A stretch of DNA of 64,000 nt from NCBI RefSeq assembly GCF_001192795.1, contig NZ_DF968181.1, positions 337,475 to 401,474 on the forward strand. The letters run 5' to 3'. Below, piece after piece: positions 8,956 through 27,591 of this stretch (position 1 is the stretch's first letter; the number at the start of each line of letters is the position of its first letter). The notes under the pieces are model-generated. The model searched no databases. It was not told the origin of the DNA and worked only from the letters and a program-made list of their open reading frames with translations. This DNA is from Flexilinea flocculi. Its GTDB lineage: Bacteria; Chloroflexota; Anaerolineae; Anaerolineales; Anaerolineaceae. The translations under genes and the position numbers were made by a program.

Positions 8956-10329
8956 ATGAAAAGAATTATCTGTACACTAATTTTCTTAATAGGATTGTTC
9001 GTATTCTGGGGAACGTTTTATCCGATTCAGACTTTTGCTGAAGACTTAACTAATCAGAATAATGCGGTTAGATATTATCTCGGTTCCCCAGTAAATACAG
9101 GTTGGGATGACGGTTATTCGGAAACAAACAAGATCGAATATAAAGATCCCCATTTTGGCTGGATACTTGGTAAATTTTTTGTAAGTGGATACACACGGGA
9201 AACAAAAGATGACAAAGACAATCCCGTATTTCTTAAAAATCCTGCTGATAAAGTTACTCTTTGGTTTAACCTTGAGCAAGACATGGATATGCTGAATAAC
9301 GATTCAACACTTTCTATCGCCGAAGATCAAAATGGTTTTGATGAATATTTTGGAATCACCAAAACCAATTTTGGTAGAGGCACTTTAATAACAAGGCATA
9401 CGGATTATCAGAATTTGCCTGGGAATCCTGTTCTTTATACAGATTTTTTGGCGGCAAAAACTTCATTGCTATCAGATACCGAGGTAGAACTTTTCGAAGA
9501 GGGTGATTATGAAATTGCATTGAACTATGAAATAAAGAAGAGCCCGATGGCCATTGCAGGGCATTCTATTTTGCCGACTTATACAAATTATAGAATCTTC
9601 TTTAGTTTTTCTGTTCGCAATGGAAACTGCATGATTTACCCACTAGATGTAATTACAAATAGTGAATTAATGAATAGTTCGATTACCGAAGATGGATTCT
9701 TTCTTGATCTGGCAAAATCTCGTTATCTTGATATCAATATCAAAAAGGAAGTTCTGAACGATAGCGCTGATGGATTAACTGAAGAGGTTCGATTCAACAT
9801 ACCTGCAAAAGATGGAGATCAATATACAGAAGAAGGAATCTACACTATTACGGTTAAAAATCGATATACCAATGAGACCACCACGAAGAAAATATATGTG
9901 GGTACCAATAATGTTCTCAAAGCTCTTGTTACCTCAAATCTTTCACTCAATGAAATAAAAGAACAACTTGCGGCTGGAGCTCAAGTCGCTGATGATGGTT
10001 CAATCATTCCACCACAAATTGTGCCCCCTACTGTAACAACAACCGATGCACAAACAGTAAGTGCCAAAGTAACTCAATCCCCAATTTATGAGAGAACAAC
10101 CCAATTAAAAACTGATTTTCAACCAGACAGCGAAAAAAGATTGAGGAATCGTGTGATTTGGTCTATTGTGATCCTTGTACCTGTTTGTGTACTGTGCATA
10201 TTTTTTATTCGAAAACGAAATGGTTTAAAAAAAGATTTATCAAATGATATAACGATTGTGGAAGATACAGTGAACGAGACAATGATCAATGACTTATCAA
10301 ATGATGAAAAAGAGGAATTCGACAAATGA
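8956..10329 (+). CDS. Surface protein, single-pass C-terminal anchor, toxin partner
   Basis: A 457-residue exported protein of unknown function. It has an N-terminal signal peptide (residues ~1-29, hydrophobic core IICTLIFLIGLFVFWG), a large extracellular region rich in Asp/Asn/Tyr, a Pro/Thr-rich linker (~350-375), a transmembrane helix (~397-416, WSIVILVPVCVLCIFFI) and a short acidic cytosolic tail. The body contains WFNLEQDMDML and GYDEYF-like stretches that look evolutionarily constrained. I have the impression, unverified, of similar proteins in gut Firmicutes. Its TGA overlaps the ATG of the downstream toxin-like lipoprotein by 4 bases, implying tight coupling and a joint role in display, export or target recognition. 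Confidence 0.75.
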   Translation: MKRIICTLIFLIGLFVFWGTFYPIQTFAEDLTNQNNAVRYYLGSPVNTGWDDGYSETNKIEYKDPHFGWILGKFFVSGYTRETKDDKDNPVFLKNPADKVTLWFNLEQDMDMLNNDSTLSIAEDQNGFDEYFGITKTNFGRGTLITRHTDYQNLPGNPVLYTDFLAAKTSLLSDTEVELFEEGDYEIALNYEIKKSPMAIAGHSILPTYTNYRIFFSFSVRNGNCMIYPLDVITNSELMNSSITEDGFFLDLAKSRYLDINIKKEVLNDSADGLTEEVRFNIPAKDGDQYTEEGIYTITVKNRYTNETTTKKIYVGTNNVLKALVTSNLSLNEIKEQLAAGAQVADDGSIIPPQIVPPTVTTTDAQTVSAKVTQSPIYERTTQLKTDFQPDSEKRLRNRVIWSIVILVPVCVLCIFFIRKRNGLKKDLSNDITIVEDTVNETMINDLSNDEKEEFDK

Positions 10330-11573
10330 AAAGAATCATTTCTTTACTCTTAGTCTTTATTTTCCTCTTGACTGGCTGTTTACCACAAAAATCTATAACA
10401 CAAGAAACTGCACATATAGTAACAATTGTTCCGACGCCTGAGAACACATTGTTTTTTCAAGATACAGAGGTCTCTCTATCTGAAAATGAGTCAGAGACAC
10501 AGACTGCTGCTGTAAGTTTTCCAAATTTGCGCGATTCTGCTCTTTTACCATATGTGGAGGAGGCTGTTTACAATGATTTGGTAACCGAGCTTGAAAGTGA
10601 TTCTTATTTTGTAGAAAATGTCCAGGCAATCTATGTTTCAAAAGAATACCTTGATGATCTGACTTCTAATTCTCGAAAGAATATCTATTTTGGATATACT
10701 CTCGAAGAAATTGAAGCCCAGTTCCAAGGTGAAAAGTTTATTTTTACATTGGGTGATGACGGACGGACAATTGTACAGAAATTTGAAAATTACAATGATA
10801 CTTACGAACAAGTCATAAGAAATTTGGCAACCGGTGCCGGTATCATACTCGTCTGTGTTACTGTCTCGGCTGTTACAAGTGGAATAGCTCCAGCTGTCAG
10901 TGTTATTTTAGCCATGTCGGCTAAAACAGGTACTGCAGTGGCCTTGTCTTCTGGCGTGCTCAGCAGTGTTGCCGCAGGAATTGTGACAGGGATAGAAACC
11001 AAAGACTTCGATGAGATGCTTAAGTCTGCCGTGCTTACAGGTAGTGAAAGTTTCAAATGGGGAGCGATTACCGGAACATTTTCAGGAGGAATCAGCGGTG
11101 CAAATGCGCTTTATGGAGCAGCACGAAATGGATTGACCATGAATCAAGCTGCAATAATTCAACGGGAATCAAAACTTCCATTGCCTTTTATCAAGAATTT
11201 TCATTCCGTGAAAGAATATACTGTGTATAAGGAAGCGAATTTGAAAATTGCAAAGGTCAATGGCAATTGGGCATACTTACAAGATATCGATTGGAATTAT
11301 GTTGGCCCTGATGGAAGAACCAATGTTGAACGAGTGCTTGCTGACTTGGCTCCGTTAGATCCAGAAGGAATCCCGTACGAGTTACATCACATCGGACAGA
11401 AGGCAGATTCTCCACTTGCGATACTGACTCAAAAACAACATCATAAAAATTTAGGAATTCTTCATAAGAATTTATCAAATACTGTAAGTGAAGTCGATCA
11501 TGGAACTGCTTGGATAAAACAAAAAAATTCGTTTTGGAAAAGCCTGCTTGATACATCTTTGAAAGGGAGTTAA
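10326..11573 (+). CDS. Lipoprotein toxin with C-terminal LHH-type HNH nuclease domain
   Basis: A 415-residue polymorphic-toxin-like protein. The N-terminus is a lipoprotein signal with lipobox LLTGC (Cys18). The middle has a Gly/Ala/Val-rich hydrophobic stretch (~160-215), as in translocation segments of other toxins. The C-terminus (~325-412) fits the LHH group of the HNH/ENDO VII nuclease fold: GPDGRTNVERVLADLAPLD, then YELHHIGQKADSPLAIL with the LHH catalytic motif, TQKQHHKNLGILH, and a closing W...W pattern. The predicted action is nucleic-acid cleavage in a competing cell. It overlaps the upstream surface-protein gene (ATGA), and the SUKH immunity gene follows after 2 bases. Delivery route is unknown. 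Confidence 0.83.
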   Translation: MKRIISLLLVFIFLLTGCLPQKSITQETAHIVTIVPTPENTLFFQDTEVSLSENESETQTAAVSFPNLRDSALLPYVEEAVYNDLVTELESDSYFVENVQAIYVSKEYLDDLTSNSRKNIYFGYTLEEIEAQFQGEKFIFTLGDDGRTIVQKFENYNDTYEQVIRNLATGAGIILVCVTVSAVTSGIAPAVSVILAMSAKTGTAVALSSGVLSSVAAGIVTGIETKDFDEMLKSAVLTGSESFKWGAITGTFSGGISGANALYGAARNGLTMNQAAIIQRESKLPLPFIKNFHSVKEYTVYKEANLKIAKVNGNWAYLQDIDWNYVGPDGRTNVERVLADLAPLDPEGIPYELHHIGQKADSPLAILTQKQHHKNLGILHKNLSNTVSEVDHGTAWIKQKNSFWKSLLDTSLKGS

Positions 11574-12322: not shown

Positions 12323-13480
12323 ATGGAAAAAGGTAATGTATTAGTAATTGGTAATTCTGGCGTTGGTAAATCCACCCTAATTAATTCAGTTCTTGGTGAA
12401 GATCGTGCCAAAACTGGTTTTGGCACTTCTGGCTCAACTGGAGAATTAAAGATTTATCAAAATGATGTTGTTCCGTTTCGTCTTATCGATACAGTTGGAT
12501 TTGAACCATCATGGTTGAAAAGTAGAATGGCAATTAAAGCAGTAGAAAAATGGTCGAAAAAGAGTGTCAAAGAAGGAAACAAGGATACACAGATAAATGT
12601 GATCTGGTTTTGCATTGAAGGAACATCAAGCAAGTTATTCCCGGAAACAATAAATAACCTTTCTAAGGCCACAAAAATGTGGCCATCGATTCCCGTTATT
12701 GTTGTTATCACAAAATCCTACTCTGTTCCTGATCGCATTAAGAATACCGAAATGGTGCATAATGCTTTTGCGAAGCAGAATCGCAATTCAATTAATCTTA
12801 AGAAAGTCATCCCTGTCGTAGCAGAAACATTTACAATCAATGACAATGCGTACGCGGCACCAGAAGGAATTACTGACTTATTGGAAGCCACAAATGAGTT
12901 GCTGCCAGAAGGAATGAAGGCTGCTAAAATAGATATTGCACAATTTATCCTCGATCGTAAAAGAGTTTTTGCCCATAGTATTGTTGGGGTTGTTACAGCT
13001 GGGGCAGTTGTTGTGGGAGCTGTATCGCTTCCTTTTTCCGACGGATTAATTTTAGGTCCAACAGAAACCGGTTTAATTTATGGGCTTTCTCAAATTTATG
13101 GAATCAAAAAAGACGAGAAATCGAAGGATTTTTTTGATTCAATTATAAATGTCGGGACAGCAAGCATTGCCGCTAAAACTGCAATCAGCGCAATTAAAGC
13201 AATTCCAGGAATAAACATTGGAGCAGCCGTGTTGAATGCGATTATCGCTGGAAGCATCGTCGCTGCTTTGGGCGAAGGATCAATTTATGCGTTTGAACAG
13301 GTTTACTTGGGGAAGAAAACCGTTGAAGATATTGAATGGGTGAAAAACCTTTTGAATTCAAGACTATCAAATCAGTTCATTGACAAGGTTATGGAGGTCA
13401 TCAAGAATCTTTCGGATAAATCCGACAAGGATTCCATAATTAAAGCAATTCTGGATTTATTTTCATCTTCAAAAAAATAA
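12323..13480 (+). CDS. P-loop GTPase with membrane-active C-terminal domain
   Basis: A 385-residue GTPase of the Era/EngA-YfjP type. G1 is GNSGVGKST (residues ~10-18), G2 is in the GTSGSTGE region, G3 is DTVGFE (~59-64), and G4 is TKSY (~131-134), a variant of NKxD. The C-terminal half (~205-330) has Gly/Ala-rich hydrophobic helices (AHSIVGVVTAGAVVVGAV; GINIGAAVLNAIIAGSIVAA), like DUF697-type GTPases that associate with membranes. It stands alone after the toxin-immunity genes, 357 bases away. Whether it belongs functionally to that locus is open. Role unknown; stress or membrane remodelling is the family-level guess. Confidence 0.75.
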   Translation: MEKGNVLVIGNSGVGKSTLINSVLGEDRAKTGFGTSGSTGELKIYQNDVVPFRLIDTVGFEPSWLKSRMAIKAVEKWSKKSVKEGNKDTQINVIWFCIEGTSSKLFPETINNLSKATKMWPSIPVIVVITKSYSVPDRIKNTEMVHNAFAKQNRNSINLKKVIPVVAETFTINDNAYAAPEGITDLLEATNELLPEGMKAAKIDIAQFILDRKRVFAHSIVGVVTAGAVVVGAVSLPFSDGLILGPTETGLIYGLSQIYGIKKDEKSKDFFDSIINVGTASIAAKTAISAIKAIPGINIGAAVLNAIIAGSIVAALGEGSIYAFEQVYLGKKTVEDIEWVKNLLNSRLSNQFIDKVMEVIKNLSDKSDKDSIIKAILDLFSSSKK

Positions 13481-17116: not shown

Positions 17117-19084
17117 TCAAAGTTTTTTGCCGATTTCCTTCCAGGTTTCAAATTCGCTGTCACCATCCAGGTCACCGGTGAAGAAATAGCCATCTCCATC
17201 CAACCAGTTTTTATAATTGAAGAAGAACATACCGTCGATACCCATTTTTATTGGATATTTATTTGTCGCGACATACCGCTCCATGGTTTCATCCCAGAGA
17301 TAAAACTCTCCTTTAACTTGAAACTTAGCGTTTTTAAATTTTGAAGCGTTCTCTTCGTTTGCAGCGGTAATCCAAATTCCGACTTGACTGTAATCATAAT
17401 CATGGAATATTACAAAATCGATCGGTTCTTTGATTTTTTCATCACCATCGAACGCAGTGAAGAATTTCAAGTTATACTCACCGTTTTTATCCGAAATTGT
17501 GAATTCGATTTCTGGTAAATGCGCAGGGTCGGACATGATTTCAAACGCTTCATATTCCACATCATTGTTTTCCCTATGTACCGGCGGATTATAAACGAAA
17601 TTGGGTTCTTTGTAAGACTCCAATACGTTTCTTAGTTTAAGCACCGTCCCCGGAGAAGTGATCTCAGCATCAAAAACGGCCTGATTGCTCCTTTCTTCGG
17701 GAGAGTTGATCCAAAGATAATACTTCAAGTCCGTTGGAAGCAGTGCTGACGATCGATAGACAGACCGGGTTACCGTTACACCAGGAATACTGTCATATTT
17801 TGTATCGCTCTCCCAGTCATATCCGGCTTTTTGATCAGCATCTGTTTCGACATAAATATTGATGTCTTTATCAACATAAATTTTATTGTAACTATTCTTA
17901 TCCGTATTATTGTCTGGTTTCGGTGTCGGAGTTGATGGTATCGGTTTAGGAGTAGCAGTCGAAATTCGCTGCGGTTCAAATTCAGTTTGTTCAGTTGGCT
18001 GAACCGTATCTGGAAATAACCAAGGCATCAGCAAATCATAGATAGAAGATGATGATTCTGAGTCATCCGGTGATTTGGATGAATCCTGTTCATCAGGAAA
18101 CAACCATGGACCAAAAATATCGTAAATGGAATCCGATGAGGAGCTGTCTTCGTCAGGAGTTTCAACGTCAGGATTTATCCATGGGATTGATACATCCGGG
18201 ATCGAATCGGGAATGTCGGCTCCCGAGTCCTCCGATGAAGAAGCCGGGCAAAAATCGCAATCGAATTTTCCCAATCTGGAATCAACAGGAGAAAGCTGAA
18301 AAGGATTCTTATTTCCTTTTCCATCGTAGACATCTTGCTGCATTCCAGCCATTGTCGCACCGGAGTAAGACCAGGAATTCTTTTTGGTATCGACTGTAAT
18401 ATATCGTTCCTCATCCGGGTAGTTATTGTCATAAACCATAATCCAATAGATTCCGTTACCTCGTTCTTCGACCGCATAGGCAGTAATCGCATGTCCGCCC
18501 GTCAGATTCTTTTTGAAAATTCCGATGGGAACAGTTCTGTTTGGATCTTTTTTAAACCATTTAATCAGTGTTTCTAATTGCGTATTTGGATCTTCCTCGA
18601 TTAGATGCCCATCCATAAACCATTGCGTGGCAAACCAGTAAGCCAATTCCCTTTGCAGTGGTGAATTATTTTCTAATTGAAGATTGTTGACTTTTTTTGC
18701 GCCAAAGTCTTCAGGTTTTTTGATCCCGTCATAAAAAAGTGTGCTAAGGACAGCCATTCCTTCGCAATGTCCTCCGGACATCGTCCGATTGACTTCATCC
18801 ATCCAGCTTTTCGCTACTTTCAGCAGTGTACAACTGCCATCCGCATTTATTTTTTTGCACACCTGATCGCCAAACATTCGACGCATTTCAATCGAGGTCA
18901 AGTTCTGCACTGAGGAACATGACCAGAAATTACTGCAGATCTGACCGCCATAGTTCTCAAATCCAAAGCCGTCAGCCTCGGGACGGAATCCTGTGTCTAC
19001 ATCGTAGTTTTTGGCGGAGACTGCTGAAAAAGCAATTCCGATCAATAAAAGAAAAGCGCACAGCAAGAATAATTTGTGTTTCAT
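17117..19084 (-). CDS. Secreted papain/transglutaminase-like cysteine protein, paralog 1
   Basis: A 655-residue exported protein with signal peptide (KLFLLCAFLLLIGIAFSAVSA). The N-terminal ~280 residues carry a Cys-His-Asp arrangement: SGGHCEGMAVLSTLFY (Cys), TGGHAITAYAVEE (His) and MVYDNNYPDEERY (Asp/Asn). That order fits the papain-like/C39/transglutaminase fold. A Ser/Asp/Pro/Thr-rich linker (~285-400) follows, with a Trp/Phe-Pro-Asp repeat (PWLFPD occurs twice). A C-terminal ~250-residue beta-rich domain ends in a Ca-binding-like DLDGDSEFE. The start at MKHK is favoured by AGGATGG seven bases before it. The neighbouring paralog suggests tandem duplication. Peptidase versus crosslinking activity is undecided. 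Confidence 0.65.
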   Translation of the reverse strand: MKHKLFLLCAFLLLIGIAFSAVSAKNYDVDTGFRPEADGFGFENYGGQICSNFWSCSSVQNLTSIEMRRMFGDQVCKKINADGSCTLLKVAKSWMDEVNRTMSGGHCEGMAVLSTLFYDGIKKPEDFGAKKVNNLQLENNSPLQRELAYWFATQWFMDGHLIEEDPNTQLETLIKWFKKDPNRTVPIGIFKKNLTGGHAITAYAVEERGNGIYWIMVYDNNYPDEERYITVDTKKNSWSYSGATMAGMQQDVYDGKGNKNPFQLSPVDSRLGKFDCDFCPASSSEDSGADIPDSIPDVSIPWINPDVETPDEDSSSSDSIYDIFGPWLFPDEQDSSKSPDDSESSSSIYDLLMPWLFPDTVQPTEQTEFEPQRISTATPKPIPSTPTPKPDNNTDKNSYNKIYVDKDINIYVETDADQKAGYDWESDTKYDSIPGVTVTRSVYRSSALLPTDLKYYLWINSPEERSNQAVFDAEITSPGTVLKLRNVLESYKEPNFVYNPPVHRENNDVEYEAFEIMSDPAHLPEIEFTISDKNGEYNLKFFTAFDGDEKIKEPIDFVIFHDYDYSQVGIWITAANEENASKFKNAKFQVKGEFYLWDETMERYVATNKYPIKMGIDGMFFFNYKNWLDGDGYFFTGDLDGDSEFETWKEIGKKL

Positions 19085-19165
19085 TTTCACCATCCTGTTT
19101 TCGCACTGCGAATCAAAGTCATCTCATTTGATCGAAGGGCAATTCCAAATTCCGAGTTACTGGTT

Positions 19166-21016
19166 TTAGCCCAGAGTTATGCTTGTTTCCAACTCAAAAT
19201 CACCATCAGCATCTTGCTCGATCGTCAAAATTCCGCTGTCCTGCCAGTCTAAATAATTGATATAAAAAGCTCCGTTTACATCCAGTTCAATTGGATTATC
19301 CGGGTTTGTGGATATTTGTTTTTCTCCATTCTCATCATAGATGAAAAATTCACCGCTGATCAGGAAAGAAGTGTCTTTAAACATTTCAGTTTCAGCATCA
19401 TCCGCTGCATAAATTTCAATTCCTAACTGACCTGAGTCATAATCATGATAGATCAGAAAATCGATATTGTTTTCGATTTCTTGACTGCCATTAAATTCGG
19501 TTTGAAATGCAAACCGATATTCACCAAATTCATCACTGATGACGAATTCAACACCTGGCAGGTAAGCAGGCGATGCAACCACTTCAAATGATTCATAACG
19601 AACATCATTTTCTTCATCATAGGTTGGAGGCGTATAAACAAAATTGGGGTATTCGTAGGATTCCAAAACATCCGTCAAATAGAGAATTGTTCCGGGCGAA
19701 GTGATATCGACATCGAATGTTGTCCATTCTTCTTTTTCCGGAGAATTCATCCATAAGTAATAAACCAGATCCGTTGGCAGTTTTGCTGTGCTGCGCTGCA
19801 TGGATCTTTTAATTTCGACGTTAGGAATTTGATCATAATTTTTCTCGTCTTCCCAATCGTAGCCGGATTTTAGACCGTCTTCTGTTTCAATATAGATATT
19901 AATAGCGGAGTTTACACCGATTTTATTAAAATCGATTTCCGGATTGCCCCAAAGATCTGGCGCCCCAACTTCCCAGGCTGAATCATCTTGCCAGGGACTT
20001 TTCTGTGGTGTCGCTGTCGGTCTACCCCAGGGACTGACTGGTTTCGTCGGTTCGCTTTCGGTTTGATCCCACGGTGACGGTCTGACTGGCATTGCTGTTG
20101 GACTTTCTTGCGTTGATTCAGCATCGGCGCCTCCTCCCCATGAGGACGCGGAAATTGCGGGGCAGAAATCGCATTCAAATTGTCCCAGGCGGGAATCTAT
20201 CGGAGCAAGTTGAAAAGGATTTGTATTCCCTTCTCCATCGTAAAGATCCTCAGCTAAATCGGACATTGTCGCCCCTGAGTATTGCCATGAATTTTGTTCT
20301 GTATCGATGATGATATAGCGTTCTTCATCCGGATAATTATTGTCATAAACCATAATCCAATAAATACCGTCATCCTTTTCTTCAATTGCATATGCAGTAA
20401 TCGCATGGCCATCGCTGAAATCTCGTTTGTAAATACCAATCGGGATTAATATGTTCGGATTGCTTTGATATGCATCAATCAGCCTTTGAAGCTGTGAATT
20501 TGGATCCTCTTCAATTAAATGGTCATCCATATACCATTGTGTTGCATACCAGTAGGCAATTTCATTTTGGAGGGCTTTATTTCCCTTCAGGTTGAGATCA
20601 TGTACGGATGAATCGCCAAAAGTGATCGGATTCTTCATTCCGGCATAAAAAAGCGAACTCAAAACCGCCATACCCTCGCAATGGCCATTCTCCATGGACT
20701 CATTGACCTCGTCCATCCAGCTTTCTGCTACTTTCAATAGTTCACAGCTGCCGTCGATGTTCAATTTGCGGCATACCTGATCGCCAAACATTCTCCGCAT
20801 TTCGACTGAAGTGAGATTTTCAATGGAAAATGTCTGATTGCAATAGGAATCACTGCATCCGTAATTTCCATAGTTTTCAAAACTGAATCCATTGATATTC
20901 GGTCTGAAACCAGTATCGATATCATAATGAGTCAAAGTCTGATTTGCAGATACTATTTGACTGCCGAATAATAAAACGATGAGGAATGAAAGCAACATGA
21001 CTGATTTCGATTTCAT
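19166..21016 (-). CDS. Secreted papain/transglutaminase-like cysteine protein, paralog 2
   Basis: A 616-residue paralog of the adjacent downstream gene, with the same plan. It has a signal peptide (VMLLSFLIVLLFGSQIVSA), Cys in GHCEGMAVLSSLFY, His in DGHAITAYAIEE and Asp in MVYDNNYPDEERY, then a Pro/Trp-rich linker with repeated SPW (RPSPWDQ, VSPWGRP, KSPWQDD), and the same C-terminal domain. The start at 21016 has AGGAG five bases upstream. A TATAAT on this strand at 21046-21041 lies close by, so the longer frame to 21076 is unlikely. The linkers are the most diverged part, while catalytic blocks and C-termini are conserved. Confidence 0.68.
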   Translation of the reverse strand: MKSKSVMLLSFLIVLLFGSQIVSANQTLTHYDIDTGFRPNINGFSFENYGNYGCSDSYCNQTFSIENLTSVEMRRMFGDQVCRKLNIDGSCELLKVAESWMDEVNESMENGHCEGMAVLSSLFYAGMKNPITFGDSSVHDLNLKGNKALQNEIAYWYATQWYMDDHLIEEDPNSQLQRLIDAYQSNPNILIPIGIYKRDFSDGHAITAYAIEEKDDGIYWIMVYDNNYPDEERYIIIDTEQNSWQYSGATMSDLAEDLYDGEGNTNPFQLAPIDSRLGQFECDFCPAISASSWGGGADAESTQESPTAMPVRPSPWDQTESEPTKPVSPWGRPTATPQKSPWQDDSAWEVGAPDLWGNPEIDFNKIGVNSAINIYIETEDGLKSGYDWEDEKNYDQIPNVEIKRSMQRSTAKLPTDLVYYLWMNSPEKEEWTTFDVDITSPGTILYLTDVLESYEYPNFVYTPPTYDEENDVRYESFEVVASPAYLPGVEFVISDEFGEYRFAFQTEFNGSQEIENNIDFLIYHDYDSGQLGIEIYAADDAETEMFKDTSFLISGEFFIYDENGEKQISTNPDNPIELDVNGAFYINYLDWQDSGILTIEQDADGDFELETSITLG

Positions 21017-21040
21017 GAGATCTCCTGTGTATAATTGAGG

Positions 21041-21046
21041 ATTATA
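21041..21046 (-). promoter_or_regulatory. Likely -10 box of the secreted protein gene
   Basis: CGGTATAAT on the reverse strand, 25 bases before the chosen ATG at 21016. It would give a short leader with the AGGAG site. No clear -35 is visible. Confidence 0.4.
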
Positions 21047-21076
21047 CCGTTTTTCTTTGAGCAGGAAAATTTTCAA

Positions 21077-21507: not shown

Positions 21508-23493
21508 ATGTATGATTTTTTCCGAAAACAAAGTGTTCTGGTCAGCATATTTCAATTTTTAATTATTTTTATAGTCGGAATAAGTATTTTTGATGATTAT
21601 GGTATTCATGTCGATGAATTAGCTGAGCGAAATACAGGTTTGATTACACTTAAATATGTATTAAACGACGTATTAAAAGTTCCTTCATTACCCGAGGAAT
21701 TGTTATTAACGCAAGATTTATTATCCTATAAAGACAAAGATTATGGCGTAGTGTTGCAAATGCCAACCGTCCTTTTTGAATATTTTATGAATTTTCGATT
21801 TGATGAGAAAACCATATTCAAAATTAGGCATTTTTGGCTTTTTATAAATTTTTACGTAGCAACAATATTTTTTTATATGTTCATTAAAAAGCGATTTCAA
21901 AATCCTTTTTTTTCAATCATTGCCGTCATCTTCCTTGTTCTGTCTCCCCGAATTTTTGCTGATGCTTTTTATAACAATAAAGATTTGCTATTCTTATCCT
22001 GGTTCATCATTTCATTGTATTTTTTTGTGCAGTTTATTTATTCTTCGACGATTTTAAATGGCTTCTTCCTGAGTATTACCATTGCATTATCATCGAACAT
22101 ACGAGTTGTCGGATTGATGATTTTATTTTTTTCCTGTTTATTCCTTTTGATTAAATTGATCAGAAAAAAAATCAAATTCAGCCGATTTATTCTATTAGCT
22201 TGCTTATTGATTGGAGTAACAGTGTCCCTTTGGATCCTCTTTTTACCGGCATCCTGGGAGAATCCAGCTAAGTATTTACTTAACGTGTTTAAAAGTTTCT
22301 CAAATTTTGACCATATCGAACCAGAAGTATATTTTGGAAAATTAGTGCCAAGTGATGCATTACCGTGGCACTATATCCTGGTATGGATCGGGATTACTAC
22401 ACCGATATTGTATTTATTTTTATTTCTCATCGGTCTTGTTTTTATAGTTTTTGTTGGGGAAAAGAAATTTTCTGAAGACTTTTTTCTTGATATCTGTATG
22501 CTATCGATGTTCTTGATACCAATCATAAGTGCCATTTTATTCCATTCCACATTATATAACGGTTGGCGGCATCTGTATTTTATTTATGTTCCCTTTCTAT
22601 ATATCGCTATTTACGGTTTTAAAAATTTATTGCATTCCAAATTTCATTTGATCAAACTGATTATCGGAACAGTGACATTCCTTTCACTTACCATAACGCT
22701 GATATGGATGATCAGGAATCATCCGTACCAAATGGTTTATTTCAATTTTTTAGCAAGAGAATATGCTGAAAATAATTTCGAGAAGGACTATTGGCGTTTG
22801 TCTTCAAGCGAATGTTTGAAATTTATTGTCGCCCAGGACAATAATTTACGAATCGATATCAGTGATTATGATGCAGTACTGCATGTTGCAAAATATGCTC
22901 TTCCAATCCAAGATCGTAATCGATTGTCAACAACATCCTATGGGTTTGGTGGTCATCCGTCAAAATATGTAATTGCTAATTATACGAATACTATTGGAAA
23001 TGAACTGCAGTTCCCTTTTTACACGCCGATTTATCATATAACTGTAGATCAAATGAAAATAGCTTCTGTCTTTCAAAGGGATCACACCGATGAACTGTGG
23101 TCACAAGATATGGTGACAGCAAGCAGAACTAATGTTAACGATAGCGAATCCCATTATGCATATGATGGTGACTTGAGTACAGGTTGGACAACAGGCAAAT
23201 TACAAAACAATAATGATTATTTGGATCTGCAATTTAATGCTTTCTATTCTTTAGATGGGATCACTTTTTATTTAGGAACAGATGATAATGAATGCCCATG
23301 GTCTTTACAACTTTTTTCCTCAGAGGATGGAATTTCATGGGAGCCCATCGAAATTACTTATCGTGGAGTATCTGACTATAAATTTATTAAGACAAAGACC
23401 AAATATTTACGACTAAAAAACTCGGAACCTTCCAAAGAGCATTCTTGGGCTGTCTATGAATTATTATTTCATGGAACACGAGAAACGGACTGA
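21508..23493 (+). CDS. GT-C membrane glycosyltransferase with discoidin-like tail, paralog 1
   Basis: A 661-residue polytopic protein. About ten hydrophobic helices fill residues ~10-405, with GT-C/GT39-like signatures: an acidic pair in the first loop (DDYGIHVDEL), SPRIFADAFYNNKDLLFLSW (~148-167) and YNGWRHLYFIYVPFLY (~350-365). A soluble C-terminal part ends in an F5/8-type C (discoidin) domain (~540-655; AYDGDLSTGWTTG, SSEDGISWEPI). It would transfer sugar from a lipid carrier outside the membrane, and the discoidin domain would bind glycan. Its last ~260 residues are nearly identical to paralog 2. Confidence 0.75.
   Translation: MYDFFRKQSVLVSIFQFLIIFIVGISIFDDYGIHVDELAERNTGLITLKYVLNDVLKVPSLPEELLLTQDLLSYKDKDYGVVLQMPTVLFEYFMNFRFDEKTIFKIRHFWLFINFYVATIFFYMFIKKRFQNPFFSIIAVIFLVLSPRIFADAFYNNKDLLFLSWFIISLYFFVQFIYSSTILNGFFLSITIALSSNIRVVGLMILFFSCLFLLIKLIRKKIKFSRFILLACLLIGVTVSLWILFLPASWENPAKYLLNVFKSFSNFDHIEPEVYFGKLVPSDALPWHYILVWIGITTPILYLFLFLIGLVFIVFVGEKKFSEDFFLDICMLSMFLIPIISAILFHSTLYNGWRHLYFIYVPFLYIAIYGFKNLLHSKFHLIKLIIGTVTFLSLTITLIWMIRNHPYQMVYFNFLAREYAENNFEKDYWRLSSSECLKFIVAQDNNLRIDISDYDAVLHVAKYALPIQDRNRLSTTSYGFGGHPSKYVIANYTNTIGNELQFPFYTPIYHITVDQMKIASVFQRDHTDELWSQDMVTASRTNVNDSESHYAYDGDLSTGWTTGKLQNNNDYLDLQFNAFYSLDGITFYLGTDDNECPWSLQLFSSEDGISWEPIEITYRGVSDYKFIKTKTKYLRLKNSEPSKEHSWAVYELLFHGTRETD
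22705..23493 (+). repeat. Near-identical duplicated segment, copy 1
   Basis: 789 bases encoding the C-terminal ~262 residues of paralog 1. They match 24753-25541 with only a handful of substitutions, visible as five amino-acid changes. Flanking upstream halves of the two genes are clearly diverged, so the boundary at about 22705 is abrupt. The similarity continues weakly into the spacer downstream. Confidence 0.92.
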
Positions 23494-23561
23494 TAGAATC
23501 ATATTTTTTGTCGTAAGGGCAAAACCTCATCAATCTTTCTAAGGAGAGCAAATAAAAAGAA

Positions 23562-25541
23562 ATGTCAAAAAATGAAATAGCCAAACAAAGAATTTTCTTG
23601 GTTTTATGCTTTGTTTTGATCTTCATCATCGGTTTATTGATTTATGATGATTATGGTGTGAGTGTTGATGAGTTGAAACAGGTCGATGCCGGACATGTGA
23701 TTTATAAGTATGTATCCGAACTGTTTAAAATAAATAACACAGATTTTAGTGATTTGCCGGACATTCACAATTATTACAACAAGTATTATGGCCAGGCTGT
23801 TACATTTCCAACAGTAATCCTTGAAGCAATAAAAGGATTCTCGATGGATACTAGCACGATTTTACGAGTGCGTCATCTTTGGAATTTTTTAAACTACTAC
23901 TTTGCAATTCTTTGTTTTTCCTTATTAATTCATAAACGGTTTTCTGATTGGAAAGTGACTATTACGGGTATTGTCATATTAATCCTGTCTCCGCGAATAT
24001 TTGCGGATGCTTTTTATAACGATCGAGACCTCATGTTCTTATCCTGGTTTATGATTACGATGTTTTTATTGAACTGTTTTATCAATAAATCCTCCATTTG
24101 GTTTAGCATTCTCCTAGGAATTTCAATTGCCATATCAATCACGATCCGTTATTTTGGACTTTGTTTTATTATTCCGTTGATTATCTATGCCTTTTCAACC
24201 GGAAAAAAATGCATAAGAAAAATTGTGGTTATTCTGATAACTTGTATCCTAACCTGGTATTTACTGACACCGGTTGCATGGGAAAATCCGGTCAAAGTAT
24301 TCTCCGCTGCGATAGAAAATTTCGTATTTTCTCATCAAAGACTTTCTGAAACGAAAGGGACAGGTATTACCTTATTCATGGGAAAATGGGTTTTAGAGTC
24401 TGACCTGCCCTGGTATTATTTGCCGGTATGGATAGTTATCACAACACCGATGGTATATATTCTTTTGTTTATTAGTGGTATTTATACTTTTTTACGAGAT
24501 AAATCCAAAAAGGTTTTTGAAAAGAATCATATACTTGACTACTCACAAATTATCATTTTGATCTTAACTCTGACAACTATAATGGTATTTCGACCGGTTC
24601 TCTATAATGGCTGGCGGCACTTTTATTTCCTCTATTGTCCGATAGTGTATTTTTCGTTGTATGGTTTTTCAGTAATAGCTAAAAGAACTTCCAGAAGTAT
24701 AAGAATTGGTCTATATATGCTACTGATCGTATCATTTCTTACTACTGGTTCGTGGATGATCAGGAATCATCCGTACCAAATGGTTTATTTCAATTTTTTA
24801 GCAAGAGAATATGCTGAAAATAATTTCGAGAAGGACTATTGGAGTTTGTCTTCAAGCGAATGTTTGAAATTTATTGTCGCCCAGGACAATAATTTGCGAA
24901 TCGATATCATTGATTATGATGCAGTACTGTATGTTGCAAAATATGCTCTTCCAATCCAGGATCGTAATCGATTGTCAACAACATCCTATGGGTTTGGTGG
25001 TCATCCGTCAAAATATGTAATTGCTAATTATACGAATACTATTGGAAATGAACTGCAGTTCCCTTTTTACACGCCGATTTATCATATAACTGTAGATCAA
25101 ATGAAAATAGCTTCTGTCTTTCAAAGGGATCACTCCGATGAACTGTGGTCACAAGATATGGTGACAGCAAGCAGAACTAATGTTAACGATAGCGAATCCC
25201 ATTATGCATATGATGGTGACTTGAGTACAGGTTGGACAACAGGCAAATTACAAAACAATAATGATTATTTGGATCTGCAATTTAATGCTTCCTATTCTTT
25301 AGATGGGATCACCTTTTATTTAGGAACAGATGATAATGAATGCCCATGGTCTTTACAACTTTTTTCTTCAGAGGATGGAATTTCATGGGAACCCATTGAA
25401 ATAACTTATCGTGGAGTATCTGACTATAAATTTATTAAGACAAAGACCAAATATTTACGACTAAAAAACTCGGAACCTTCCAAAGAGCATTCTTGGGCTG
25501 TCTATGAATTATTATTTCATGGAACACGAGAAACGGACTGA
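23562..25541 (+). CDS. GT-C membrane glycosyltransferase with discoidin-like tail, paralog 2
   Basis: A 659-residue paralog with the same architecture: acidic first loop DDYGVSVDEL, SPRIFADAFYNDRDLMFLSW, YNGWRHFYFLYCPIVYFS, and a C-terminal discoidin-like domain. Its first ~40 residues resemble paralog 3 (MSKNEIAKQRIF), its central membrane part is the most divergent of the three, and its last 262 residues match paralog 1 almost exactly. It lies 68 bases after paralog 1 with AAGGAG about 17 bases before the ATG. Function as above; the acceptor may differ because the membrane part differs. Confidence 0.75.
   Translation: MSKNEIAKQRIFLVLCFVLIFIIGLLIYDDYGVSVDELKQVDAGHVIYKYVSELFKINNTDFSDLPDIHNYYNKYYGQAVTFPTVILEAIKGFSMDTSTILRVRHLWNFLNYYFAILCFSLLIHKRFSDWKVTITGIVILILSPRIFADAFYNDRDLMFLSWFMITMFLLNCFINKSSIWFSILLGISIAISITIRYFGLCFIIPLIIYAFSTGKKCIRKIVVILITCILTWYLLTPVAWENPVKVFSAAIENFVFSHQRLSETKGTGITLFMGKWVLESDLPWYYLPVWIVITTPMVYILLFISGIYTFLRDKSKKVFEKNHILDYSQIIILILTLTTIMVFRPVLYNGWRHFYFLYCPIVYFSLYGFSVIAKRTSRSIRIGLYMLLIVSFLTTGSWMIRNHPYQMVYFNFLAREYAENNFEKDYWSLSSSECLKFIVAQDNNLRIDIIDYDAVLYVAKYALPIQDRNRLSTTSYGFGGHPSKYVIANYTNTIGNELQFPFYTPIYHITVDQMKIASVFQRDHSDELWSQDMVTASRTNVNDSESHYAYDGDLSTGWTTGKLQNNNDYLDLQFNASYSLDGITFYLGTDDNECPWSLQLFSSEDGISWEPIEITYRGVSDYKFIKTKTKYLRLKNSEPSKEHSWAVYELLFHGTRETD
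24753..25541 (+). repeat. Near-identical duplicated segment, copy 2
   Basis: Second copy of the C-terminal segment, displaced 2,048 bases from copy 1. Differences include cgtttg/agtttg, tcacacc/tcactcc and gctttc/gcttcc. The spacer after it (acaaagtcatattttttatcg) also resembles the spacer after copy 1. Confidence 0.92.
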
Positions 25542-25608
25542 CAAAGTCATATTTTTTATCGAAAAAGCAAAACCTTATCAATTTTTATAAGAAGAGCAAG
25601 TATACAAA

Positions 25609-27591
25609 ATGTCAAAAAATGGAATAACTAAACAAAGAATTTTCATGATTTTATGCTTTGCTTTAATCTTCATCATCGGTTTATCGATTTATGACGATTA
25701 TGGCATGAGTATTGATGAAGTATTTGAAAGGAATACTGGATTAATTACCCTGAAGTACGTATTAAAAGAAAAATTGAATATTGAATCATTGCCTGAGCAA
25801 ATCGAAAATGCAGGTGACTTATTATCCTATGAAGATAAAGATTATGGCGTTTTGCTGCAAATGCCCGTTTTACTTTTCGAATACGCGAATCAGTTTCGAT
25901 TCGATTTGAATACCGTGTTTCGGATTCGGCATCTATGGATTTTTCTGAATTTTTTTATTGCTTTAGTCTGTTTCTGCAAAATGACTCAAAGAAGATTTTC
26001 AAGTTGGACTTTATCGTTTCTTGGCGTTGTCTTTTTAATCATATCGCCGCGAATTTTCGCGGATGCATTCTACAACATCAAGGATTTGATGTTCTTTTCG
26101 TGGTTTACGATTACGTTGTTCATCTATATCGAATTCATTCTTTCGCCAGGAATTCTCCATTGTCTTCTCCTGGCGTTGGTCATCGCGATTTCATCGAATG
26201 TCCGGATTATCGGAATCATCGTTTTACCGTTTTCCTGTTTTTATCTGCTTTTTTTATTCATCAGAAAACGGATTCGTTTATCCCAGCTACTCGTTAAGGC
26301 TGCTTTGTTGATTGGAGTGACTGTCTTTTTCTGGATATTATTTCTGCCGGCTTCATGGGACAATCCGATTCGTTTTTTAATGGATTCTTATCAGCACTTC
26401 AGTCGATATGATTTTGATCTTCAAGAATTGTATTTTGGGAAACTCATTCCAAGCAATGCCAAACCCTGGCATTACTTGCCGGTTTGGATTGGGATTACAA
26501 CTCCAATTATTTATTTGGTTCTCTTTTTTTTGGGAATCTTTTCATTTTTTCAACAACAAAAAAAGTTAAAAATTGAAAATCGCTGGATTGATCTCAGCTT
26601 CATCTGCTTTTTATTGATTCCAATCTTGATCGCAATTCTTAAAAAATCTACACTATATAACGGCTGGCGTCATTTCTATTTTATTTATTGCCCATTTATG
26701 TATTTCGTTTTATACGGATTTTTATTTATTAAAAATGTATCCAAACAGCGGTTCCGTTATCCTCTATATGCTGCATGTCTGTTTTCGTTGCTTATCAACG
26801 CCAGATGGATGGTCATCAATCATCCATATCAGATGATTTATTTTAATGAACTGATCAGGAATTCAGCGGATGTACTCTTTGAACGCGATTATTGGGCTTT
26901 ATCGACGCGGGAAAGCCTGGAATTTTTATTAAAATATGAGAAAGATCCTGCATTATTCGTCGGGGATTATCAATCATCGATCGATTTTACCCAATATTCA
27001 CTCAGGAAGAAAGATCGAGATCGGTTGATTATTAAACAATATCGAAAAGGGGTACAACCTCCAGCATATCTGGCTGCAAATTACTCTCGAATAATTGGTA
27101 ATGATTTGAATTTTCCATTTTATGATCGAATTTATAACGTCAAAGTGGATGATATGATCCTTTCTTCTGTATACCAGCGCAGCGTTGAAGATGAATTACC
27201 TGCCGGAAATATTGTATTTCATATACAAACAAATATTCATCAGGATATTGCAGCGAATCTGTTTGATAACGATTTCAGCACTGCATGGACTACTGGAAGA
27301 CTTCAAAACAATTCGGATTATCTGGAAATTGAATTTAAAAATCCTGTCACTTTGTGGGGTATGACCTATTATTTGGCAAGTGATGAGACCGATTTTCCCC
27401 GTTCATTGCAAATGTTTTCTTCGATGGATGGAATTCTATGGGAACCCATAGATATCGTCAGCGAGGATTTGACCGATTATACTTTTAATCAAAAACAGAT
27501 GAAGTTTCTAAAAATGAAAAACACGGAACAATCCGATCGCTTTTTGTGGTCGATGACTGAATTAGTTTTCCATGGAAGTACACAGGATTGA
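25609..27591 (+). CDS. GT-C membrane glycosyltransferase with discoidin-like tail, paralog 3
   Basis: A 660-residue paralog: DDYGMSIDEV, SPRIFADAFYNIKDLMFFSW, YNGWRHFYFIYCPFMYFV, then a discoidin-like C-terminus (LFDNDFSTAWTTG, SSMDGILWEPI). The membrane core is closest to paralog 1 (both have ERNTGLITLKYVL and a DKDYGV-LQMP stretch), its leader is closest to paralog 2, and its tail is clearly diverged from both. The acyl-CoA synthetase start lies 1 base after its stop, so the two are translationally coupled. All three genes probably form one transcript. Confidence 0.75.
   Translation: MSKNGITKQRIFMILCFALIFIIGLSIYDDYGMSIDEVFERNTGLITLKYVLKEKLNIESLPEQIENAGDLLSYEDKDYGVLLQMPVLLFEYANQFRFDLNTVFRIRHLWIFLNFFIALVCFCKMTQRRFSSWTLSFLGVVFLIISPRIFADAFYNIKDLMFFSWFTITLFIYIEFILSPGILHCLLLALVIAISSNVRIIGIIVLPFSCFYLLFLFIRKRIRLSQLLVKAALLIGVTVFFWILFLPASWDNPIRFLMDSYQHFSRYDFDLQELYFGKLIPSNAKPWHYLPVWIGITTPIIYLVLFFLGIFSFFQQQKKLKIENRWIDLSFICFLLIPILIAILKKSTLYNGWRHFYFIYCPFMYFVLYGFLFIKNVSKQRFRYPLYAACLFSLLINARWMVINHPYQMIYFNELIRNSADVLFERDYWALSTRESLEFLLKYEKDPALFVGDYQSSIDFTQYSLRKKDRDRLIIKQYRKGVQPPAYLAANYSRIIGNDLNFPFYDRIYNVKVDDMILSSVYQRSVEDELPAGNIVFHIQTNIHQDIAANLFDNDFSTAWTTGRLQNNSDYLEIEFKNPVTLWGMTYYLASDETDFPRSLQMFSSMDGILWEPIDIVSEDLTDYTFNQKQMKFLKMKNTEQSDRFLWSMTELVFHGSTQD

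Follow-up and report, generated by a model that had tools for sequence, protein, structure and literature searches.

Three adjacent genes of Flexilinea flocculi, all encoding membrane glycosyltransferases with a discoidin-like tail, are mosaics of one another, and the explanation we favour, with a probability of roughly two in three, is that homologous recombination swaps the membrane cores of these GT-C enzymes between conserved ends, combined with a recent conversion of the tail between two of the three genes. The core has been replaced at two other loci of the genome (g4 and C2:654k), and the genes are mosaics with definable edges and with segments of different relative age. Exchange between paralogous glycosyltransferases is already known; here it takes in the entire membrane core, with unusually consistent cut points.

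The genes and their products

The window, i.e. the whole 64,000 bp stretch that was analysed (positions 337475–401474 of contig C3, NZ_DF968181.1), belongs to a source genome (G000) of 3.51 Mb in three contigs. The first-pass annotation had placed three glycosyltransferase genes here, and all three open reading frames exist on the forward strand; g1 (21508–23493, 661 aa), g2 (23562–25541, 659 aa) and g3 (25609–27591, 660 aa). The gene g2 is a mosaic with a g3-like leader, a different core type and a g1-like tail. Its leader (23560–23671, right edge at codon 37) consists of the first transmembrane helix and the loop DDYGVSVDE and is matched by the g3 leader (25607–25718), while its membrane core (23673–24752) is of a separate type found also in C3, a gene of the sister species Flexilinea sp. 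MO118. The membrane core of g1 (codons 38–399, 21619–22704) is of the same type as that of g4, a fourth, unlinked paralog with a discoidin tail (G000:C2:414464–416413).

The AlphaFold model of g1 (pLDDT 93, pTM 0.89) consists of a GT-C part, a soluble C-terminal domain and a CBM32-like domain, and its closest structural matches are ALG12 (Z 25.4 over 427 residues), Pmt1-Pmt2 (Z 24.0) and ArnT (Z 23.3), with CBM32 structures matching at Z ~15 over 130 residues. As judged from this model, g1–g3 are GT-C membrane glycosyltransferases with a CBM32-like discoidin (F5/8C) domain. The residues D30, D36 and E37, situated between helix 2–27 and helix 37–55, are conserved in at least 90% of 38 sequences, and by analogy with the family this acidic motif of the first external loop is a candidate for a catalytic role. 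The trio thus resembles the GT-C superfamily (ALG12, PMT, ArnT, STT3/PglB) in its predicted fold (Z 23–25) and its first-loop acidic motif but differs from the solved members in the C-terminal discoidin/CBM32-like domain, in an identity of only ~10% and in falling below the cut-off of Pfam PMT_2 (PF13231, 26.1 bits; g1 20.0, g2 24.1 and no match for g3). A profile search of solved structures left the membrane part unmatched and matched the tail to F5/8C domains. For PF00754 (cut-off 28.2 bits) g1 and g2 score above the threshold (31.9 and 34.0) and g3 just under it (27.5), and the only F5/8C domains over the cut-off in the genome are those of g1, g2 and g4. A form of ~530 residues lacking the discoidin domain is widespread in bacteria, and the discoidin-tailed form, among the sequences compared, turned up in no genome outside this genus. 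A literature search found no report on these glycosyltransferase genes.

Other genes of the window deserve mention. The lipoprotein-like ORF at 10326–11573 on the forward strand, which may encode a toxin, has an LHH nuclease domain at its C-terminus (PF14411, E 2e-18), and a GTPase ORF (12323–13480) follows it. On the reverse strand lie two tandem paralogs (17117–19093 and 19166–21076, 48% aa identity to each other) with no match in Pfam or NCBIfam, in which the conserved sequences GHCEGMA and GGHAITAYAV resemble a papain-like cysteine/histidine pair. A homologue in genome G008 (L042:4166–5158, 63% aa over 289 residues) adjoins the glycosyltransferase pair there in divergent orientation, so that the association with glycosyltransferases is conserved.

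Mosaic structure in the window

When g1 and g2 are aligned from codon 400 to the stop codon, a block covering the soluble C-terminal domain and F5/8C (22705–23493 in g1, 24753–25541 in g2, offset 2048), 12 differences are found in 789 nt, seven of them synonymous and five changing an amino acid, which is exactly the count of about five in the last 262 residues given in the first-pass annotation. The left edge was said to be abrupt and is so, as identity begins at the TGG of codon 400 (break interval 400–400) with the flanks CTGATA and GGTTCG just outside. The duplication passes the stop codon and continues through the intergenic gap (23494–23561 between g1 and g2, 25542–25608 between g2 and g3; 53 of 68 aligned columns match) into the start of the gene that follows (110 nt, up to codon 37), the nucleotide identity being 98.5% in the tail, 78% in the gap and 89% in the leader. 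The tail-gap-leader segment is accordingly present twice, in register, at a spacing of 2048 bases. At synonymous and intergenic, presumably neutral, sites the gap and the leader have diverged further (0.22 and 0.24) than the tail (0.04–0.06; gap versus tail, Fisher p 4e-5). Since tail, gap and leader differ in age, the simplest reading involves at least two events, which would be an older duplication of tail, gap and leader and a later homogenisation of the g1 and g2 tails.

The synonymous divergence (dS, Nei-Gojobori) between g1 and g2 is ~0.05 in the tail and 1.9–2.8, i.e. saturated, in the core, and uniform divergence along the genes is thereby ruled out. Positive selection acting on the cores alone was also considered and rejected because the synonymous sites of the cores are likewise saturated. 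The leader of g2 is, as had been noted, closest to that of g3 (78% aa identity), with a dS of 0.29 in the leader and saturation elsewhere. For the core of g1 the earlier statement of closest relationship to g3 holds within the trio (55/47% aa to g3 versus 39/29% to g2) but not genome-wide, where g4 is the nearest relative (67/54% aa); a grouping of the g1 and g3 cores to the exclusion of g4 was not rejected by the AU test (p-AU 0.2). The nearest relative of the g2 core is that of MO118 C3 (68/61% aa).

In a GENECONV-like permutation of the variable sites the g1/g2 fragment scored 400 (best of 10,000 permutations 30.5) and the g2/g3 leader 37 (best 13.3), the observed scores being reached in none of the 10,000 permutations. 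Cores and tails of 24 genus members were also treed separately, and the tails of g1 and g2 grouped with support 100/100 while their cores fell on opposite sides of a fully supported branch. AU tests rejected a g1+g2 core clade (p-AU 2e-47), a g4+C3 core clade (7e-6) and a g2+C3 tail clade (2e-5), and the stem trees did not discriminate between placements of g4 and C3 (p-AU 0.46). Taken together, the permutation and AU tests reject a common history for all segments of the trio. Conflicts of the same kind between core and C-terminal trees were found in genomes G001 and G007.

The tail shared by g1 and g2 (the T tail) suits either gene, g1 alongside g4 as much as g2 alongside C3, and the alignments are best read as a recent conversion of the tail between these two genes, in which either could have been the donor. 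Ectopic (interlocus) gene conversion in duplicated genes (reviewed in PMC3924818) leaves sharply bounded tracts that cover less than the whole gene and have a synonymous divergence far below that of the surroundings. Such a tract is found here too, that of g1/g2 lying between otherwise divergent paralogs. What is found here in addition is an exchange of cores between species at two other loci.

Core replacement at two other loci

The genome holds seven homologues, g1–g4 and three tail-less genes, all of them whole-length open frames, and these were compared with those of MO118 (G010), a metagenome-assembled genome (MAG) with a coverage of ~2.3. At the window locus MO118 has the g3 orthologue alone, with the same neighbours on either side, and g3 is the sole member of the trio with an intact syntenic orthologue there (77.6% aa). 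Just upstream of this orthologue a decayed tail relic was found (L061:5787–5858; local score 44, while 99% of shuffles reach 27 or less). An upstream gene was thus probably lost in MO118, and as the relic is closest to the T tail, a tail of this type was already present ahead of g3 when the two species diverged, which fits both directions of the g1/g2 tail transfer. In g3 itself the codons 531–661 (F5/8C) show a dS of 0.31 to the MO118 orthologue compared with ~1.0 elsewhere, possibly a further exchange.

At the g4 locus the flanking genes are the same in the two species and 4 kb of sequence match at 93% nt identity up to codon 37, after which the identity drops to ~53% in the core and resumes at 90% from codon 480. 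The core of C3, the MO118 gene at this locus, shows 35% aa identity to g4 and 61–68% to g2. The second case is the tail-less locus C2:654k (654b), which compared with MO118 C44a has a leader of 89%, a core of 56% and a C-terminal stem of 97% nt identity. The core tree still places these two cores next to each other, with a support of only 15, and the case for a swap here therefore rests not on topology but on synonymous divergence and on branch length (path of 1.42 for the core, 0.024 for the stem). Among 69 pairs screened, g1/g2, 654b/C44a and g4/C3 stood out at the top, and a control pair (C3:2155k and MO118 C43) diverged nearly uniformly along the gene. In a downstream tail-less gene (L058:3588–5378 compared with L057:3216–5006) the synonymous divergence is 0.06 at the start and climbs to 0.6 near the end, as if the block exchanged at that locus stopped inside the gene.

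The baseline dS between the two species is 0.83–1.06 around the window and 0.12–0.34 around the g4 locus (L046:2486–9372 on G000:C2, compared with L044). The low values suggest that a larger stretch, the g4 region itself, was recently exchanged between the two lineages.

The left breaks are situated at codon 37 (32–39) for g2/g3, 37 (35–41) for g4/C3 and 38 (36–40) for 654b/C44a, all just after the DDYGxxxDE loop and, in the g1 model, between the D30/D36/E37 loop and the second helix. On the right the break is at codon 400 exactly for g1/g2, inside the final membrane helix (380–404 in the model), ~10 codons before the equivalent tryptophan for 654b/C44a (~390 in g1 numbering) and at codon 480 for g4/C3; the right edge is thus in the last membrane helix and once ~80 codons further on, a variation that counts against the favoured reading. 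The recurrent left edge may have been kept by selection for joints that work, or may simply mark where the DNA is conserved.

Alternative explanations and relation to known systems

That only the discoidin tail is copied between neighbours, the cores diverging as old paralogs, agrees with the g1/g2 tail being the youngest event and with the edges of the tract, one where the last membrane helix ends and the other at the stop codon. At g4 and C2:654k, however, leader and tail are near-identical between the species and the core is what differs, and at g4 the flanks are near-identical as well. As leader and flanks match between species, tail conversion alone cannot produce this pattern and is considered an unlikely account of the whole. 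Unequal crossing-over in a tandem array, with g2 as a fusion gene and no later conversion, would explain the in-register duplication and its spacing, and the relic in MO118 indicates that the gene copy number varies at the locus; a single event would however leave a single age, at odds with the younger tail, and this explanation is improbable.

Less credible still is a programmed variation system, in which the cores would be switched at short conserved sites by a dedicated recombinase or from silent cassettes. The left edge recurring in three pairs would suit it, as would the short inverted repeat GGATGAT-CAGGA-ATCATCC that coincides with the tail edge of g1/g2, but the repeat is accounted for by the WMIRNHP codons, the genome search returned whole-length homologues and no silent core fragments, and no recombinase is found among the ORFs beside g1–g3. 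As a site-specific signal the repeat was rejected, being absent from the junctions of the other recombinants. An assembly artefact, i.e. a collapsed or chimeric repeat, is given the lowest probability of all. Both between-species swaps come from the one MAG, where low coverage makes a chimeric contig possible, a point against the preferred reading, although the reading frames are open across all junctions. In the window a collapse is unlikely because the tail copies differ at 12 scattered sites, all frames being open, and the unique sequence between the copies permits one order of the pieces.

Core exchange between conserved ends, the preferred reading, would proceed as follows. The exchanged block would be the core, from the DDYGxxxDE loop to the last helix with WMxxNHP (about codons 38–400), while the N-terminal leader and C-terminal tail stay at the locus and provide the homology for a recombination that presumably needs no dedicated recombinase. 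An older event in the window would have duplicated the tail-gap-leader segment on either side of a g2-type core; the tails of g1 and g2 would have become near-identical afterwards. A swap would change the lipid-linked sugar or the acceptor used while retaining the tail, for which glycan binding is predicted. Of the earlier proposal of a tail exchange between paralogs the recombination is strongly supported, but the module that moves at the two other loci is the core, and the g1/g2 identity reads, from the alignments, as one recent tail conversion in a family in which it is the cores that are exchanged. More tentatively, and with the odds somewhat against it, the Flexilinea GT-C core may be a recombinational cassette with fixed boundaries, one right behind the catalytic loop and one where the last membrane helix ends, moving within and between species as a natural combinatorial system for surface glycans in which each locus would retain leader and tail and acquire a new catalytic specificity.

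The products of futA and futB in Helicobacter pylori are not known to be GT-C membrane enzymes. These paralogous fucosyltransferase genes form chimeras via homologous recombination, which contributes to altered surface glycans (PMC2583950), and the trio is alike in that paralogous genes for surface-glycan transferases recombine into chimeras. The futA/futB exchanges take in fairly short tracts, operate on a within-host timescale and involve phase variation (PMC2583950), whereas the trio, known from sequence alone, encodes polytopic GT-C enzymes in which the entire core is swapped at repeated positions. In the Neisseria oligosaccharyltransferase PglO, alleles and laboratory chimeras have mapped parts that influence the target choice (PMC9239064). 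Both sets of chimeras are GT-C enzymes joined at conserved stretches, those of PglO being made in the laboratory and those of the trio family natural.

If the preferred reading is true, nature has already found functional GT-C joints, the core being replaceable at two positions with the gene left intact, and these would be testable joints for locating donor and acceptor choice within enzymes that are hard to study. O-antigen and capsule genes elsewhere diversify by shuffling, and the reading would suggest that the surface glycans of Anaerolineaceae diversify through shuffling of cores.
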